Shown here piece by piece: positions 39,588-47,301 of a stretch of 64,000 bases of DNA; the stretch's first letter is position 1, and every line of letters starts with the position of its first letter. The position numbers and the translations under genes were made by a program. Location of the stretch: assembly GCF_014653785.1 (NCBI RefSeq), contig NZ_BNAS01000002.1, forward strand, positions 594,807 to 658,806, in the 5' to 3' direction. This DNA comes from Promicromonospora soli. GTDB lineage: Bacteria > Actinomycetota > Actinomycetes > Actinomycetales > Cellulomonadaceae. Under the pieces are notes generated by a model. That model had not been told where the DNA came from. It was given only the letters and a program-made list of their open reading frames with translations, and ran no database searches.

Positions 39588-40430
39588 ATGAACCAGGAGA
39601 TCGGCACGCAGGCCGCGCCACGGACCGCACGGGAGCGCGTCCGCGCCCTCCTCGAGCGCCGCTGGTTCACCAACCTCGTGCTCGTCGTGATCCTGGTGAA
39701 CGCCCTGGTGCTCGGCGTGGAAACCATGGTGCGTCGGTCCGCGCTTCAGCCCGTGCTGGAGGTCCTCGACCACATCATGCTCGGCTTCTTCGTGCTCGAG
39801 CTTCTCCTGCGATTCTTCGCCTACGGCCGGCGGTTCTTCACCGACCCGTGGAGCGTGTTCGACCTCCTCGTCGTGGGCGTCGCACTGATCCCGGCCAGCG
39901 GATCCCTTGCCGCCCTACGAGCCCTGCGGGTGCTGCGGGTGCTGCGGGTGATCACCGTGGTGCCGTCGCTGCGCCGGGTCGTCGACGGCCTGCTGCGGGC
40001 CGTGCCGGGGATGGGCGCCGTGGGCGCGCTGCTGGCGCTGGTCATGTACGTCTCGGCGGTCATAGCGACGGGCCTGTTCGACGAAGCCGCGCCCGAGTAC
40101 TTCGGCCACCTCGGGACATCACTGTTCACGCTCTTCCAGGCCATGACGGGCGAGGCCTGGCCCGACATCGCCCGCGCGGTGATGGAGACCCACCCCTCCG
40201 CGTGGATCTTCTTCGTGCTCTACATCCTGGTGGTCGGCTTCGCGGTGCTGAACCTGTTCATCGCGGTCATCGTCAACGGCATGGAGGAGATCTCCGAGGA
40301 GGAACGCAAGGACGACCAGCAGAAGGACGAACGCCTCGACAACCTTGCTGCGCAGAACCGGGAGATCCTCGCCGAGCTCCGCTCCCTGCGCGCGAAGCTC
40401 GACGAGGACGACGCCGGCGCCGTCGCCTAG
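39588..40430 (+). CDS. Voltage-gated sodium channel of the NaChBac type
   Basis: The 280-residue protein has one six-helix channel unit. S4 carries Arg at every third position ([19 protein letters not shown]). The pore motif is [13 protein letters not shown], which satisfies F-x-x-x-T-x-E-x-W of bacterial Nav channels, although Gly replaces the usual Leu before the filter Glu. S6 ([20 protein letters not shown]) leads into a long charged C-terminal coiled coil (about 235-275) that would tetramerise it. It is convergent with leuS, the stop codons overlapping by 3 nt. Confidence 0.88.
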
Positions 40431-42349
40431 TCCAGTACGACGGCGACCAGGTGCGGCGGCCGCACGACCACCCGCCGCACTGCCCGGTCGCCCACGGCGC
40501 GGGCCACGGCCGGCCGGGCCCGGGCCATCCGCTCCAGCTCGGCAGGCGCGACGTCCGCGGACACCTGCATCCGGTCCCGCACCTTCCCGTCCACCTGCAC
40601 CACGGCCTCGACCTCTGTGATCACCAGGAGCGCCGGGTCGACCGTGGGCCACGGCTGCGCCGCGACCGGAGTGGTCCGCCCCAGCCGCTCCCACAGGTCC
40701 TGGGCGGTGTGCGGCGCGAACAGGCTCAGCACCACGGCCACGGCTTCGACCGCCTCGCCGTAGGTCTCCGCCCCGGCACCGCCGGCCCCCGACGCCGCCC
40801 GCCGCACTTCGCCCACCAGCTCCATCAGTCGTGCGATCGCGACGTTGAACCGCCCCGCCTCGACCAGCCCGTCGATCTCGTGCACGATGCGGTGCACCGT
40901 CCGACGCAGGGTGTCGGGTCGGTCAGCGCCGGTCGAGCCTGGCGGCACCAGCCGCAGCACCCGGGCCAGGAACTTCCGCATCGCGTCGGGCGAGACGTCC
41001 GCCCAGTCGACGTCGTCCTCCGGCGGCCCGGAGAACAGCATCGCCAGCCGTACCGCGTCGACCCCGTGCCGGTCCAGCTCGGTCGCCAGGTCCACGCCGT
41101 TGCCCAGCGACTTGCTCATCGCCCTGCCGTGGTTGACCACCTGGCCCTGGTTCAGCAGGCGCGCGTACGGCTCGGACGAGGGCACCAGACCCATGTCGTA
41201 CAGCACCTTGGTGACGAACCGCGCGTACAGCAGGTGCATCGTCGCGTGCTCGACGCCGCCCACGTACAGCGCGGCGGGCATCCACCGGGCGGCGTCCTCC
41301 GTGCGGAACGGGCCGCCGTCGTACCCGGGCGACAGGTAGCGCAGGAAGTACCAGGACGAGTCCACGAACGTGTCCATCGTGTCGGTGTCCCGTTCGGCCG
41401 GGCCGCCGCAACGCGGGCAGGTGGTGGCCACCCAGTCGCGCGCACCGGCCAGGGGAGACACGGCTTCGGTGTCCGACGGCGAAGCCGGCGGCAACAGCTC
41501 GGCGCCCTCCAGGTGCGGCAGCTCGACCGGCAGCTCGTCGTCCGGCACCACCACCTCCCCGCACTCCGGGCAGTGGACCACGGGAATCGGCGCTCCCCAG
41601 TAGCGCTGCCGGGAGACCAGCCAGTCGTGCAGGCGATAGGTACGGGCGGACTCGCCGCCCGGCCCCACGTCGTCCCGCCGCCCGATCCAGTTGCGCTGCA
41701 TGGTCAGCACGTGCGCGGGCCAGCCCGCCTCCAGCAGCGTCATGTCGTCCAGCAGGCGGTCCGCGTAGGCGGTGATCCGGAAGAACCACTGCGTCAGGCT
41801 GCGGGCGACGACGGCGGTGCCGCAGCGCTCGCACGCGCCGTCGACCACCTGCTCGTTGGCCAGCACCGTGCGGTCCTGCGGGCACCAGTTCACCTCCGCC
41901 GCGGCCCGGTAGGCCAGACCCCGCTCGTGCAGGCGGGCGAACAGCCACTGGGTCCAGCGGAAGTACTCCGGCTCGTGGGTGTGCAGGCGACGCGACCAGT
42001 CGAACGAGACGCCGAAGCGCCGGATCGACGCCGCCTGGGTGGCGATGTTCGCCTCCGTGTACACGGCCGGGTGCTCGCCACGGCGGATGGCCGCGTTCTC
42101 GGCCGGCAGGCCGAACGAGTCCCAGCCGACCGGGTTGAGCACATCGAATCCCTTGGCCCGCCAGTACCGCGCCACGACGTCGGTGATCGCGAACACCTCG
42201 GCGTGACCCATGTGCAGGTCTCCCGAGGGGTACGGGAACATCGTCAGCAGGTAGCGGCGGGGGCGGGCGCCGTCGTCGGACGCCTCGAACAGGCGGGCCT
42301 CCGCCGGGTCGCTCCCGACGGGTTCACGGGTGGCGCGCTTCTCGCTCAT
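40427..42349 (-). CDS. leuS: Leucyl-tRNA synthetase lacking the CP1 editing domain
   Basis: The 640-residue protein is a class I LeuRS of bacterial type: HIGH-like HMGH at 46-49, zinc-type Cys pairs (CERC, CPECG, CPRCG), KMSKS-like AMSKS at about 407, anticodon-binding helices and a short C-terminal domain ([14 protein letters not shown]). Normal bacterial LeuRS has over 800 residues. Here MQRNWIGR (about 213-220) is followed within some 15 residues by [20 protein letters not shown], blocks that elsewhere flank the 170-200-residue CP1 editing domain. That domain, which hydrolyses mischarged tRNA-Leu and is the target of benzoxaboroles, is absent. An apparent attenuator controls it. Probably a second LeuRS copy. 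Confidence 0.92.
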
Positions 42350-42387
42350 GACTCTCGCTCTCCGGTGCTTGATCGGGTCCGGGCACG

Positions 42388-42453
42388 AAAAAGCCCCTCG
42401 CAAGGAGGGGCGGCCGCACCGGGTGTGCCCGATCGAGGGCGGATCCGGTGCGG
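42388..42453 (-). terminator. Attenuator hairpins in the leuS leader
   Basis: In the RNA a first stem CCGCACCGG/CCGGTGCGG (42453-42445 with 42422-42414) begins at the base after the leader-peptide stop. It is followed by a classical terminator GCCCCTC-loop-GAGGGGC (42411-42405/42399-42393) and five U residues (42392-42388). A competing pairing of CCCTC (about 42440) with GAGGG of the terminator is possible. The start codon of leuS is 39 nt further on. Confidence 0.8.
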
Positions 42454-42480
42454 CTAGGTAAGCAGCGAGCGTGTGCGCAT
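42454..42480 (-). CDS. Leader peptide MRTRSLLT of the leuS attenuator
   Basis: Nine codons, ATG CGC ACA CGC TCG CTG CTT ACC TAG. Two adjacent Leu codons, one of them CTT, which is rare in such GC-rich genes, precede the stop. The ATG is 6 nt after the -10, so the mRNA is probably leaderless. Ribosome stalling on Leu codons when charged tRNA-Leu is low would favour read-through into leuS. The sequence shows the layout; the mechanism is inference from known amino-acid attenuators. Confidence 0.7.
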
Positions 42481-42486
42481 GTCCCC

Positions 42487-42515
42487 ACGGTACGTGGGCC
42501 GGCCGAGGCGGGTAA
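42487..42515 (-). promoter_or_regulatory. Promoter of the leuS leader
   Basis: On the minus strand TTACCC (42515-42510) and TACCGT (42492-42487) are separated by exactly 17 bp, and the leader-peptide ATG follows the -10 by 6 nt. Confidence 0.65.
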
Positions 42516-42744
42516 AGGGAGTTCTCCGTACCGCTGCGTGGTACGAGCGCCGGGTCGGTACGCCGCCGGCGAGGTCCGAGCCGGTGTACGCGCCGTCGAG
42601 CGGGAGCCGTGGCCAAGCGCGCCTCAGGCACTCCGAGCCACGGCTCCCGTCCGACGCGTAGCTCGGCCCGCCCCCAGCGAGGTCCGAACTTCGTCCGCGT
42701 CGCAGTTAAGACGCGGGCACGTCCCGGAAGTCACAGCACCATGG

Positions 42745-42776: not shown

Positions 42777-43010
42777 ACCCGACGACGTCGTCTCGCGCGC
42801 GCCGAACGATGCCCCGGGCACTAATTGCCCCGCGAAACGGCGCCCGAACCGGACGTCGCGGGTGAATTGGAAGAAATCGTCGGAAGTACCGACCAGCCGG
42901 CCGCTCGAGCGCCCCACGATCACTCCGGAAGGTTGCACAAACCCGGATTCGTGGTGCGATCATTACAGCGAGTCAAAACCGACACTATGCGCAGAGAGGG
43001 GCAGGTTCGC

Positions 43011-44465
43011 GTGACCACCACAGGTGACCTGCGAATCGACGACTGGGTAGTGCACCGCCTCAACGTCGTCCGCTCCGTCGCCGCACGCGTACCCGGTATC
43101 GAGGCCGAAGAAGCCACCGGCCGCGCCCTGGAAAAGATGGTCCGCATCGTGTCCACCGGCGGGTCCATCGACGACCCCGCCCCCTACTGGCGACGCGCCG
43201 CGGTCAACGAAGCCATCTCCATGACCCGCGCGGCCGGCCGCACCAAACCCGTCGAGGACGACACCTTCGATGGACTCACACCCCCCGTCGCCGGCGGCGA
43301 GCTGGACGCCGAACGCCAGGCCGACGTCTCCATGCTCCGTACCGCCCTGTCCGACCTGGCCGACGACGACCGCGAGATCCTGCTCGACCGGCACGTGCAC
43401 GACAAGGCCGTCGCGCACATCGCCGCAGGTCTCGGCGTCCGCCCCCACGCCGTCACCATGCGCCTACGCCGCGCCGAAGAACGCCTCGCCGGCGCCTTCG
43501 CCGCCGCCCACGCCCAACGCGTCGACGCACCCGAGTGCCGAAGCACCCGCGCCGCCATGCACGACTACCTCAAGGGACGCCTCCTGCCCCGCCGGCAGCG
43601 ACGCCTCGAGGTCCACATGAACGGCTGCGGCGAGTGCACCCGGGCCTTCATCGACGTGCGTGAGGTCTCGTGGATGCTGCGTGACCTGGGCCAGCACCTC
43701 ATCGGCGGCGGGATCGTCACCGGTGCGATGGGTGGCGCCGCCGGTGCTGCGGACGCGGGGAGAGCGCGTTCGTTCGGCAAGAAGGAGACCGCCGTGGCGG
43801 CGGGCGTGCTCGCCGCGCTCGCCATCGGCGGAGGCGCTGCGGCATACGTCGCCAACCAGCCCGCCGCGCCCCCCGTCCAGGCCACCGATGACGCCGGGGC
43901 TACCGCCGGTTCCGACGGCGAGGGCGGTGGCGGCGAGGGCTCAACCCCCACCCCGGAGGATCCGACGACGGAGGAGCAGCCCCCGTCGATCCCCCCGCCC
44001 GCCGGCCCGCCGCCCCGCCCCGAGACCACGCCCAAGGAGGACGCGGCGCCCGTCGATGAACCCTTGGTGGCGGCGGAGCCAGCGCCCGCTCCCGTGCCCG
44101 AGGCCGCGGACGCGCCCGAGCCTCCCGCGACGAGCTCGGGTCCGAGCTCCGCTCCCGGCCCACACCCAGGCGGAGGTACGGACGACCCGCCGCCTGCTGG
44201 TCCCGCGGGGCCTGAGCCCGCAGAACCCCCGGCGGAGCCCACGGAACCCCCCGCCGGCCCGCCGCCAGGGACACCGGACCCGCCGAACGTTCCCGAGGAC
44301 CCGCCCGGCCTCGGCACCGCGCTGGAGGACCTCCTCGTGGAGCTGGGTCTCGGCAACCTGCCCGGTATCGATCTGGCGACCACCACGCTCGACGAGATCT
44401 GGGAGCTGTTCGACGGCGCGGCGTCGGACGCCGGCGGCCACGCAGAGTCAGGGTCCGGAGACTGA
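43011..44465 (+). CDS. ECF-like sigma factor fused to zinc anti-sigma domain and membrane anchor
   Basis: The 484-residue protein reads as one chain: a degenerate sigma region 2 (about 8-80; VVRSVAARVPGIEAEEATGR, YWRRAAVNEAIS), region 4 helix-turn-helix (about 120-165; AVAHIAAGLGVRPHAVTMRL), a ZAS/zf-HC2 anti-sigma domain (about 173-215; HMNGCGECTRAF, H-x3-C-x2-C with an upstream Cys), one membrane helix (about 258-282) and a Pro/Glu/Ala-rich exterior tail of 200 residues ending in a folded-looking LEDLLVELGLGNLPGI segment. GTG 43011 is chosen by alignment with the downstream paralogue; ATG 42987 is possible. It would be a self-inhibited, membrane-tethered transcription factor. Confidence 0.8.
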   Translation: MTTTGDLRIDDWVVHRLNVVRSVAARVPGIEAEEATGRALEKMVRIVSTGGSIDDPAPYWRRAAVNEAISMTRAAGRTKPVEDDTFDGLTPPVAGGELDAERQADVSMLRTALSDLADDDREILLDRHVHDKAVAHIAAGLGVRPHAVTMRLRRAEERLAGAFAAAHAQRVDAPECRSTRAAMHDYLKGRLLPRRQRRLEVHMNGCGECTRAFIDVREVSWMLRDLGQHLIGGGIVTGAMGGAAGAADAGRARSFGKKETAVAAGVLAALAIGGGAAAYVANQPAAPPVQATDDAGATAGSDGEGGGGEGSTPTPEDPTTEEQPPSIPPPAGPPPRPETTPKEDAAPVDEPLVAAEPAPAPVPEAADAPEPPATSSGPSSAPGPHPGGGTDDPPPAGPAGPEPAEPPAEPTEPPAGPPPGTPDPPNVPEDPPGLGTALEDLLVELGLGNLPGIDLATTTLDEIWELFDGAASDAGGHAESGSGD

Positions 44466-44468
44466 TGG

Positions 44469-44522
44469 CTGTGCGGGCCTCCTACCAGGCCCGCGTCTCC
44501 TCCTTGCTGTGCGCCCGCACAG
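44469..44522 (+). terminator. Hairpin after the first sigma-fusion gene
   Basis: CTGTGCGGGC (44469-44478) and GCCCGCACAG (44513-44522) are perfect arms; an alternative inner stem GCGGGCCT/AGGCCCGC shares the first arm. It lies directly after the stop codon and could terminate or attenuate transcription into the second gene. Confidence 0.6.
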
Positions 44523-44664
44523 ACCTACTGGGCGAAAGCCCAAGATCACCCCGCGATCACACCCATACCTTCCATGCCTCTGCGATCTTTGGAAGCATGC
44601 GTGCCCCAGGTTCCGTGCAACGTGATGCGATGCGGCGCCTTGTCGCGGTCAGGAGGTGGGCAGC

Positions 44665-46074
44665 GTGACCGTCACCAGCGCAGAGCTCAGCCAGTGGGCA
44701 GCACATCGCCGCGCCGTGGTCTTCACGGTGTCTCGGCGTGTTCCCGGGATCGACCCCGAGCTTGCCGCGAGCCGCGGGCTCGAGGTGCTGTGCATCGAGC
44801 TCATGAAGCAGGGCGATCTGTCCGACCCCCTCACGTTCTGGAGCACCGCATCGGTGGACGCGGCACTGAAGATGGCGCAGGAGCAAGCCCTGTCCGTCGA
44901 CGGGTCCCTGGACACCGAGGCGATCACCGCCCCGATCCGGCGCGCGATCGACTTCGAGGTGCTGAACAGTGCGATGGAGAGGCTGCCGGCCGGTGAGCAG
45001 CAGATCCTCTGGGACCACCACGTGGGGTCCCGGCCCGTGGCCGCGATCGCGGACGAGATCGGCGTGCTGCCCTATGCCGCCCGACGGCGCCTGCGCCGCG
45101 CCGAGAACCGGCTCGCGAGCAGCTTCGCCGAGACGCATGCTGGTTCTACCGATGACCTCGAATGCAGGACCACCCGAGCTTCCATGCATGATTTTGTGCG
45201 ACACCGCCTCCTGCCTCGCCGCCGGCAGAAGGTCGAGGACCACATGGTCCAGTGCGCCGACTGCACGCGGGCGTTCGTCGACGTGCGCGAGTCGTACTGG
45301 ATGCTGCGGGCCGCGGCCCCGGTCCTGCTGATCGGTGCCGCAACCGCGGCGGAGACCGGCACGGTGGCCACAGCGGGCGTCACTGCGGCGGGTGCGGGCC
45401 TGGGCTGGCTCACGACCCTCGGAACACGGGCGGTCCTGACCGTCCGCAGCGCCCTCACCGATCCGCTCAGCCTGACCGCCACCGTCGCCGGCGGGCTGTT
45501 CATCACCACCGCCGTCACGACCGGTGTTGCGGGGTACGCGGACGCGGCGACGTCGTTCTTCGACGCCGGCACTGTCTCTGTCTCCGCGCCGGACCGCGCG
45601 GCTCTTCGACACGTCACGCCGATCTCCCTGGCCGAGGACCCGGCGAACATTCCCGACCTGGCCGAGCCCGATCCGCCCGGTCTCGCGAAGAACGGGACGC
45701 CGCCGGGCCTGGCCGACAAGGACGGGATACCACCGGGCCTGGCCAAGAAGGACGGCATACCGCCCGGGCAGGGGAGAGAGTCGGACGACCAGGAGGAGAC
45801 CACCGGGCCGAGAGTCCCGGTCCCGCCTGACCAGGCGGGGAAGGACGACACGCCACCGGGCCTCGCGAAGAAGGACGACATACCGCCCGGGCAGGCGAAA
45901 GAGGACGGCACGCCGCCGGGCCTCGCGAAGAAGGACGGCATACCGCCCGGCCACGCGAAAGACGACGGACCGCCCGGCGAAGCGAAGAAGGACGCGCCCG
46001 ACACCGGCTGGCGCGATGACGTCGGACCTAGCCGGTCGGATCAGACGCGTTCCAGGAGCACCATCACTTCGTAG
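44665..46074 (+). CDS. Second sigma/anti-sigma fusion protein with PPGLAKKDG repeat tail
   Basis: The 469-residue paralogue of 43011-44465 has sigma-like region 2 (VVFTVSRRVPGIDPELAASR), region 4 (VAAIADEIGVLPYAARRRLR, about 115-150), the anti-sigma zinc motif HMVQCADCTRAF (about 190), one or two hydrophobic segments (about 220-245 and 270-293) and an exterior tail with 10-residue repeats such as GIPPGLAKKD from about 337 to 443. GTG 44665 follows AGGAGG by 8 nt. The gene end overlaps that of the convergent rlmC by 34 nt. Signal sensed by the repeat tail is unknown. Confidence 0.8.
   Translation: MTVTSAELSQWAAHRRAVVFTVSRRVPGIDPELAASRGLEVLCIELMKQGDLSDPLTFWSTASVDAALKMAQEQALSVDGSLDTEAITAPIRRAIDFEVLNSAMERLPAGEQQILWDHHVGSRPVAAIADEIGVLPYAARRRLRRAENRLASSFAETHAGSTDDLECRTTRASMHDFVRHRLLPRRRQKVEDHMVQCADCTRAFVDVRESYWMLRAAAPVLLIGAATAAETGTVATAGVTAAGAGLGWLTTLGTRAVLTVRSALTDPLSLTATVAGGLFITTAVTTGVAGYADAATSFFDAGTVSVSAPDRAALRHVTPISLAEDPANIPDLAEPDPPGLAKNGTPPGLADKDGIPPGLAKKDGIPPGQGRESDDQEETTGPRVPVPPDQAGKDDTPPGLAKKDDIPPGQAKEDGTPPGLAKKDGIPPGHAKDDGPPGEAKKDAPDTGWRDDVGPSRSDQTRSRSTITS
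45673..45993 (+). repeat. 30-bp coding repeats (PPGLAKKDG type)
   Basis: About nine imperfect 30-bp units encode PPGxAKxD plus a two-residue linker (GI, GT, DT, DI). They come in two blocks separated by an acidic 25-residue spacer (ESDDQEETTGPRVP region). Position four alternates Leu, Gln and His; Leu units and Gln/His units alternate in the second block. The repeats are exported if the upstream helix is a single-pass anchor. Confidence 0.8.
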
Positions 46075-47231
46075 TGCGCAGTCTGCGGGAACATGTCGAG
46101 CAGGCGCGCCCGCACGGGGCGCAGCGACGGCATGGCGGAGAGGTCCTTGGCAAGCGTCGTCGCGTTGCAGCTCGAGTACAGGACGTGGTCGATCACCGAG
46201 TTCTCCAGCCAGCCCGCAAGATCCGCGCCGATGCCACGCCGGGGCGGATTCACTATCACCATCTCGGGTAGCTCAGGAGCATCCGGCCCGACGGCGAACG
46301 CCGTCGCGTCACCCGCGGCGAACGTGACGTCGCGGAAGCGGCCGGCCCGTTCGCCGTCGCGCAGCTTCTCCACCGTGCCCGAAGCCGCCGTGACGGCCTC
46401 GGCGCTGATCTCGATTCCAGTTACCGCGCGCCCGGGCGCTGCGCAGTGCAGCGCGAACCCGCCGACGCCGCAGTACAGGTCCCAGAGGCTCTTCGGGCTC
46501 ACCTCGTCGACCCAGCTGCGGGCCTGCCGGTAGAGCTCGGTCGCAACCGCCGTGTTGGTCTGGAAGAAGCTCTGCGGGCGCAGGTCCAGGGTGATGTCGT
46601 CGATGCGCATCGGGAGCGTGGTGCGCTCGGTGAGCGGGATCTCGAGGTCCCCCTCGAGCACTGCGGCGTGGGCCGGCTGGATGTTCGCCGACGCAACCGC
46701 CAGTGCCGGGAGCTCGGCCAGCAGCCAGCCCAGGTGCTTGCGGATCCGCGCTATCGCCTCCTGGGAGCGCAGCACGAACCGAACCATGAGCTCGCCGTCG
46801 GGAGACAGGGTGACCAGGAGGTACTTGAGCTCGCCGCGCTGCTGCGCGCGCTTGCCGACGCCCGAGACCTGGTACGGCTCCAGGTTCGCCCGCGTGACGA
46901 ACGCCGCCAGGGTCCCGAAGGATGCCTGGAGGGCGTCCGGGTAGAGGCCGCAGTCAGTGAGGTCGACGCCGTGGCCGGCCCGGTCCAGGATGCCCAGCAC
47001 CGGCTCGGCGACCGTGCCGCTGACCACCATCTTCGCCTTGTTCCGGAAGCCCGACTCCACGCTGCTGACCGCCGGGAGCCACGTCAGCTCCGCGCCGGTG
47101 GTCGAGCCTGTCGCGACCGAGGCGAGGAGCGTGGCGACGCGCCGCTCCTTGTCGAGCACCTGGGTGGGGTAGTCGATCTCCAGGAGGGTGCAGGAACGGC
47201 AGCGGCCTGCATCGTAGTGGGGGCACTGCAC
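46041..47231 (-). CDS. rlmC: 23S rRNA (uracil-C5)-methyltransferase, RlmC type
   Basis: The 396-residue protein has an N-terminal iron-sulfur motif (CPHYDAGRCRSC, then a further Cys in TDCGLYP), no TRAM domain, and the methyltransferase core: SFFQTNTAVATELY, LYCGVGGFALHC (SAM loop), VNPPRRGIG and the catalytic Cys in YSSCNATTLAKDL. Lack of TRAM fits RlmC (U747) rather than RlmD. GTG 47231 is set by GATAAT 6 nt upstream on the minus strand, an apparent leaderless mRNA. Confidence 0.88.
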   Translation of the reverse strand: MQCPHYDAGRCRSCTLLEIDYPTQVLDKERRVATLLASVATGSTTGAELTWLPAVSSVESGFRNKAKMVVSGTVAEPVLGILDRAGHGVDLTDCGLYPDALQASFGTLAAFVTRANLEPYQVSGVGKRAQQRGELKYLLVTLSPDGELMVRFVLRSQEAIARIRKHLGWLLAELPALAVASANIQPAHAAVLEGDLEIPLTERTTLPMRIDDITLDLRPQSFFQTNTAVATELYRQARSWVDEVSPKSLWDLYCGVGGFALHCAAPGRAVTGIEISAEAVTAASGTVEKLRDGERAGRFRDVTFAAGDATAFAVGPDAPELPEMVIVNPPRRGIGADLAGWLENSVIDHVLYSSCNATTLAKDLSAMPSLRPVRARLLDMFPQTAHYEVMVLLERV

Positions 47232-47301
47232 GGTTCCATTATCCAGCCCGCGCGCTATCGCCTGGATCACTCCGGCGCGAGGCGGCCCGGAGGCCGCTGA
47301 G

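Follow-up and report, generated by a model that had tools for sequence, protein, structure and literature searches.

Why would Promicromonospora soli, whose 5.4 Mb genome encodes a complete leucyl-tRNA synthetase (LeuRS), keep a second one from which the CP1 editing domain has disappeared? The gene in question, leuS2, lies on the minus strand of a 64,000-nt window (contig NZ_BNAS01000002.1, positions 594,807 to 658,806), which is the whole stretch of DNA analysed here and to which plain coordinates refer. The answer we favour, with moderate confidence, is that leuS2 encodes an active LeuRS devoid of CP1 editing and serves as a reserve enzyme that would be induced when Leu-tRNA becomes scarce, proofreading being left to the full-length LeuRS1.

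The original prediction, made from the sequence of the window, placed in this region a LeuRS lacking the entire CP1 domain and retaining its catalytic motifs, zinc knuckles and anticodon domain. Its coordinates proved right, and the gene and its immediate elements are the following.

40427..42349, minus strand: leuS2, a 640-residue bacterial-type LeuRS without the CP1 editing domain, stop codon included.
41633..41677, minus strand: the 15-residue linker (residues 225-239) that replaces CP1, between MQRNWIGR and the next conserved block.
42360..42363, minus strand: the Shine-Dalgarno sequence GGAG of leuS2, 10 nt before the ATG.

MQRNWIGR occupies residues 217-224 and the conserved block after the linker starts at residue 240, 15 residues thus standing for an editing domain of about 195. 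The spacing from QRNWIG to DWLxSRQR is 18 residues in leuS2, as against 190-240 in 77 of the 78 CP1-containing reference loci of our genome contig scan, the 78th (L062) being cut by its contig and its spacing unmeasurable. The remainder of the protein is that of a bacterial LeuRS: it scores 672.7 bits with the NCBIfam model TIGR00396 (leuS_bact), above the curated cut-off of 548.4, and matches tRNA-synt_1 and the anticodon-binding domain PF08264 in Pfam. The class I motifs HxGH and MSKS (here HMGH and AMSKS), the Cys pairs and the C-terminal domain are all retained; only CP1, a usual but not universal attribute of bacterial LeuRS, is absent. A short linker in the place of CP1 with the remaining fold kept is the arrangement of the Mycoplasma mobile enzyme (PDB 3ziu, 637 residues), which, among the solved structures searched with phmmer, is the LeuRS that aligns with leuS2 in a single stretch (residues 27-628), with 36% identity over the structural alignment. 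From these conserved motifs, leuS2 is predicted to be a catalytically competent LeuRS that would charge tRNA-Leu.

Two doubts attached to the original prediction, namely that CP1 had been lost through an assembly deletion and that no other leuS existed, have been removed. The CP1-less gene is found in 12 of the 13 genomes of the genus (group g1), with a junction spacing of 13-18 residues in each, and one of them, G008, is assembled in a single 5.2 Mb contig, so that an assembly artefact is ruled out as the cause of the missing domain. The anticipated normal copy, a full-length leuS1, was located at G000:C1:975884-978745 of the P. soli genome, and leuS2 is therefore not its sole LeuRS. A full-length LeuRS likewise accompanies it in all 13 genus genomes, in G032, in Paractinoplanes toevensis (G1294) and in G955; in G587, the only candidate found is a partial frame of 427 residues. 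Among the CP1-containing relatives, two LeuRS are present in 5 of 26 genomes (G1295, G1296, G1311, G1313 and G1314), three of which are metagenome-assembled, and the second LeuRS of G1296 is incomplete.

The similarity searches delimit the distribution of the gene. In the family sample (E 1e-75), 37 of 221 genomes match: 12 of g1, 1 of g3 (likewise CP1-less), 15 of g6, 3 of g9, 5 of g16 and 1 of g11. With the threshold set at E 1e-165, no further genome came from the order sample (396 genomes) and one, G587, from the class sample (394 genomes). In the phylum sample (396 genomes, junction-spanning query), the 10 matches are P. soli itself, the CP1-less G955 and eight others that are not CP1-less, with a CP1 stretch of 181-223 residues. 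The genome contig scan, in which 80 loci were kept of at least 587, contains one CP1-less locus, that of P. toevensis (L012). No plasmid-borne CP1-less copy was found among 15 of 68 records, whose matches consist of two pieces spanning the CP1 length. The g16 copies L156 and L157 (G179 and G181) are apparently decaying: the match of G179 covers model positions 4-495 only, and the copy of G181 is spread across two frames.

Is the gene then on its way out? The ten aligned genus copies share 82-89% identity, and a ratio of nonsynonymous to synonymous substitution rates (dN/dS) of 0.27 indicates purifying selection. That leuS2 is the decaying relic of a LeuRS gained by duplication or horizontal transfer would agree with its dispensability, no match having been found in G005 among the 13 genus genomes, and with the two broken-looking copies out of five in g16. 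The queried neighbour genes were not found in G005 either, so that this absence may stem from a more extensive deletion or from a gap in the assembly; selection of this strength and retention in 12 of the 13 genomes, ten of them with the leucine leader described below, make the relic quite improbable in our opinion.

The reserve-enzyme reading draws on what precedes the gene. A conserved leader block spans 42480-42388 ahead of leuS2, and the elements of the region, in the order of transcription, are as follows.

42487..42516, minus strand: promoter-like element TTTACC-N18-TACCGT, read by eye.
42454..42480, minus strand: leader mini-open reading frame (mini-ORF) that contains two Leu codons in a row (CTG CTT).
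42414..42453, minus strand: hairpin with arms CCGCACCGG and CCGGTGCGG, located right behind the stop codon of the leader and adjoining the terminator; it covaries between lineages.
42388..42411, minus strand: intrinsic-terminator-like hairpin GCCCCTC-CTTGC-GAGGGGC followed by TTTTT.

The ATG of the mini-ORF stands 7 nt downstream of the promoter-like element and its translation is possibly leaderless. A short reading frame with a run of regulatory codons and a terminator hairpin with a U run (42411-42388), two of the marks of a ribosome-mediated leucine attenuator, are thus both present. A T-box or other Rfam RNA was ruled out, the sole match, to mir-939, being below threshold and due to chance. 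A mini-ORF with two consecutive Leu codons and a terminator are found at 10 of the 12 leuS2 loci of the genus, and mini-ORFs with Leu runs also precede leuS2 in g3, g6, g9, g16, G587 and G955. Over the 124 LeuRS loci scanned, some of which were fetched twice, such a mini-ORF occurs at 58, as compared with 455 of 20,000 random windows from the same loci; a terminator is additionally present at 33 of these 58, and in 83 of 20,000 random windows. Among loci of the full-length leuS1 type, the mini-ORF occurs in one of 24, two of which belong to the same genome; no leucine leader was found before P. soli leuS1, nor before L122, the sole LeuRS detected in its genome. Leucine-run leader peptides with terminators were also observed before the CP1-containing leuS of Arthrobacter, Nocardioides and other actinobacteria (L026, L028, L031, L034, L035, L041, L047, L049, L051, L054 and L056), beyond the two Streptomyces named in the available part of PMC1262725. 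Because CP1-containing relatives of leuS2, including sole LeuRS, carry the leader, it is, to judge by this distribution, ancestral to the LeuRS lineage of leuS2.

The pairing of the leader RNA was analysed in 20 leaders from g1, g3, g9, g16 and G587, a set without g6 and G955. The two hairpins are 97.9% paired, versus 38-57% for slid controls, and six of their pairs have changed on both sides (27 cells), a figure reached by none of 500 shuffles. Furthermore, the part of the leader holding the Leu codons shows complementarity to the initiation region of leuS2. In the 31 leaders counted (L108, L130 and L157 were dropped, their ends or the leader pattern not being found), the duplex of the two is always more stable than the shuffled mean (on average -15.7 versus -11.5, sd 3.4). 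When the leader is masked so as to simulate ribosome stalling at its first Leu codon, the predicted mean unpaired probability of the Shine-Dalgarno sequence rises in 28 of the 31.

The model we propose combines these elements. A shortage of Leu-tRNA, due to leucine limitation or to LeuRS1 inhibition, would leave the ribosome stalled where the mini-ORF encodes leucine. The stalled ribosome would cover the Leu segment that otherwise pairs with the ribosome-binding region of leuS2, and stalling would alter the folding of the hairpin and terminator region, thereby allowing the expression of leuS2 as a reserve charging enzyme. LeuRS1, which possesses CP1, could deacylate mischarged tRNA-Leu in trans, and the reserve copy would for this reason tolerate the loss of its own domain.

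A number of observations weigh against this model. On the RNA side, the hairpins show 8 further pair types, below the shuffled mean of 10.5, and the native Leu/initiation duplexes exceed the shuffled ones in stability by a mean of only about 1.2 sd. Cross-lineage duplexes often match native ones in stability, and covariation of this stem is therefore not supported; in L117 and L121 almost no such pairing is predicted. The predicted opening of the Shine-Dalgarno sequence is small in P. soli (0.19 to 0.31), unchanged in L113 and lower in L131 and L134, and the wider initiation region opens less in 7 of the 31 leaders, all from g6. The leader hairpin and the terminator are able to coexist, and no antiterminator excluding the latter was found in leader folding. 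The putative switch may act through the terminator, the ribosome-binding site or both, the pairing of the Leu segment with the initiation region being accompanied by a weak predicted opening upon stalling. On the side of distribution, the mini-ORF of L124 keeps a single Leu codon, no leader pattern was found at L130, which lies close to a contig end, nor any leucine leader before the P. toevensis leuS2, and the g6 leaders and that of G955 yielded no terminator in the scan. Nor is the leader confined to CP1-less enzymes: CP1-containing ones from Arthrobacter, Nocardioides and others are preceded by it as well, and several of these are the only LeuRS found in their genome (e.g. L016, L019, L021, L026, L028 and L035); it may thus do nothing more than mark the ancestral lineage. 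The dN/dS is higher for leuS2 than for leuS1. Finally, "editing-free" may be too strong a term for LeuS2, because the CP1-less M. mobile LeuRS is reported, in the available part of PMC3834818, to keep a tRNA-independent pre-transfer editing.

How often has CP1 been lost? A first alignment of 100 rows, established after exclusion of L014, L032, L050, L062, L068, L076, L086 and L091, was reduced to a tree of 55 rows by removing near-duplicates, the viral row L146 (see below) and several outgroup rows; the M. mobile enzyme is absent from our trees. The leuS2 of g1 and g3 form one CP1-less clade (support 100/100), whose sister is the g6 and g9 group, g16 being next out, and the P. toevensis L012 and G587 L149 enzymes are placed elsewhere. 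In approximately unbiased (AU) tests on 54 rows, from which the long branch L150 of G955 had been removed, constraining the eight CP1-less rows together was 192 log-likelihood units worse (p-AU 5e-5) and constraining L012 with L149 was 72 units worse (p-AU 1e-5). A single origin of the actinobacterial CP1-less LeuRS is thereby rejected, and on this tree CP1 has been lost at least three times. G955 is probably a fourth case: its CP1-less second LeuRS (L150:3671-5530) sits on a long branch and shows HVGA where HxGH is expected, which makes its activity doubtful. The relatives of g6, g9 and g16 retain TTRP[DE]T (TSRPET in L156) and HDxRD, which we take to be editing-site motifs. An editing-essential Asp is mentioned in the part of PMC3834818 available. 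At 198-206 residues, the CP1 stretch of g16 has its full size; in g6 (the genus Cellulosimicrobium) and g9 it mostly measures 163-180 residues, rather than 190 or more, and lacks residues after HDxRD. In L154 it reaches 195 residues through an insert ahead of TTRPDT.

The loss of CP1 removes the binding site of editing-site (oxaborole-type) inhibitors, and LeuS2 would be expected to be insensitive to them; the resistance to such a compound envisaged in the original prediction is plausible. It is possible, if less than an even chance, that natural LeuRS inhibitors are what keeps leuS2, an enzyme that could not be trapped without CP1 and would sustain translation while LeuRS1 is poisoned. This explanation is compatible with the reserve enzyme, the inhibitor becoming its reason, and the second copy, the starvation-type leader and the repeated loss of CP1 all suit it. 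The editing site of LeuRS is not known to be the target of any natural inhibitor, no biosynthetic cluster was seen at the loci inspected (those outside the window from the starts of reading frames only), and the nearest relatives retain CP1. Inhibitor-resistant second synthetases are known from the available parts of PMC9437257 (IleRS2, SerRS2) and PMC5059758 (AgnB2), the last of which resists with its editing domain retained.

A second alternative concerns fidelity itself. At low leucine, a CP1-less LeuRS might deliberately charge norvaline or other analogues to tRNA-Leu, so that translation goes on and yields altered proteins; the leader, which suggests induction at low Leu-tRNA, and the missing editing domain would fit, and the M. 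mobile enzyme is described, in the same partly available source (PMC3834818), as not editing its mis-aminoacylation product, with an ambiguous proteome. The presence of LeuRS1, which could edit in trans, speaks against such a mistranslation switch, which we hold unlikely.

CP1 is also absent from the LeuRS of two large viral genomes. IMGVR_UViG_3300050120_000230 (415,409 bp, IMG/VR) encodes a 645-residue CP1-less LeuRS (L146:4590-6527) with 10 junction residues and a leucine-specific-type insert before KMSKS; the first tree (FastTree) places it apart from the actinobacterial enzymes, and its gene has a tRNA cluster (Asp, Gly, Glu) nearby. LR756501.1 (uncultured phage, 735,411 bp) encodes a 508-residue LeuRS without CP1 that ends early (L191:3986-5512); five tRNA-Leu genes (anticodons TAG, GAG, CAA, TAA and TAG) lie about 0.8 kb upstream of it. 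In LR745206.1 (uncultured phage, 634,780 bp), a stretch of 330 bases (405140-405469) matches the junction-spanning query over 127 residues, and the LeuRS of this record may also be devoid of CP1. The viral cases, the repeated loss of CP1 and the Leu-codon leader are additions to the original prediction. Could CP1-less LeuRS form a recurrent functional accessory class, comprising Leu-codon-controlled second copies and huge-phage enzymes, one with its own tRNA-Leu set, in which CP1 is repeatedly shed because speed, or being rid of the editing site, counts at low Leu-tRNA, and during whose use leucine codons are deliberately decoded less faithfully? We consider this rather unlikely.

By Pfam scan, the neighbours of leuS2 in the window are unrelated chromosomal genes; at the other CP1-less loci they were judged from the starts of called reading frames only. 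An Ion_trans channel-like gene (39588-40430) is convergent with leuS2, with a 4-base overlap. Of the 12 g1 and g3 loci fetched, 11 have this gene, the twelfth (L135) being cut by its contig; it was not found in G005 nor in one genome each of g6, g9 and g16, in a search without positive control. In G005 the channel, leuS2 and a methyltransferase-like gene (46041-47270) were all not found (one of the two neighbour searches had G008 as positive control), so that no specific link between channel and leuS2 can be drawn. Two adjacent sigma-region-4/zinc-finger proteins are encoded at 42825-46074, the second with PPGLAKKDG-type repeats, and several g1 and g3 assemblies stop about 0.2-2.0 kb upstream of leuS2. 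No tRNA genes were found in the 64,000-nt window. A non-translational role, in which leucyl-adenylate or Leu-tRNA would be supplied to another pathway, finds a precedent in the Sulfolobaceae LeuRS-I, whose CP1 is disrupted and which produces Leu-AMP but does not aminoacylate (PMC9437257, available in part). None of the neighbours scanned is an obvious user of the LeuS2 product, and the supply of Leu-tRNA to another process, also advanced in the original prediction, thus receives no support from the genes around leuS2; we hold a non-translational role very unlikely.

In conclusion, leuS2 assembles features that are known separately: CP1-less LeuRS, duplicated LeuRS and leucine attenuators. Their combination was not found described in the literature searched, and no CP1-less second LeuRS in bacteria was found in titles and abstract openings, a partial coverage outside which most subscription literature lies. 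A review of duplicated LeuRS (PMC9437257) mentions, in its available part, LeuRS-I and the haloarchaeal LeuRS2 and no bacterial CP1-less duplicate; both are duplicates like leuS2, but they are archaeal, LeuRS-I being non-aminoacylating and LeuRS2 weak, whereas leuS2 keeps the bacterial domains. Attenuators are described before leuS of two Streptomyces in the available part of PMC1262725, as is the LEU element of leuA, whose Leu run pairs with the Shine-Dalgarno sequence and whose mutants are cited as speaking against classical attenuation. Likened by description, these leaders share with that of leuS2 the Leu-codon peptide, the hairpin and the terminator, but precede leuS or leuA of Streptomyces and others rather than a CP1-less second LeuRS. 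Within the clade of leuS2 itself, the actinobacterial LeuRS of about 830 residues (Arthrobacter, Nocardioides) and the second LeuRS of Cellulosimicrobium funkei, a second copy as leuS2 is, have a similar leucine leader; unlike leuS2, they retain CP1 with TTRPDT and HDxRD. The indolmycin-resistant TrpRS1 of S. coelicolor is reportedly a second synthetase proposed to be inducible by shortage of its own charged tRNA; it differs in the amino acid, and no editing domain is involved.

Editing by LeuRS is usually deemed necessary for faithful translation, and its absence a sign of genome reduction. Here, a conserved and seemingly regulated CP1-less LeuRS coexists with an editing one in genomes of 5-7 Mb, so that a single cell holds charging and proofreading apart. 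Trans-editing and conditional mistranslation could be tested directly in such a system, which may also reveal a natural route of tolerance to inhibitors of the LeuRS editing site. In the reduced genome of M. mobile, the CP1-less LeuRS is, as far as is known, the sole one, whereas leuS2 is a second copy kept beside a full LeuRS. A LeuRS without CP1 is known from that organism (3ziu; PMC3834818, available in part), and leuS2 may be likened to such an enzyme placed in the role of an inducible second synthetase.
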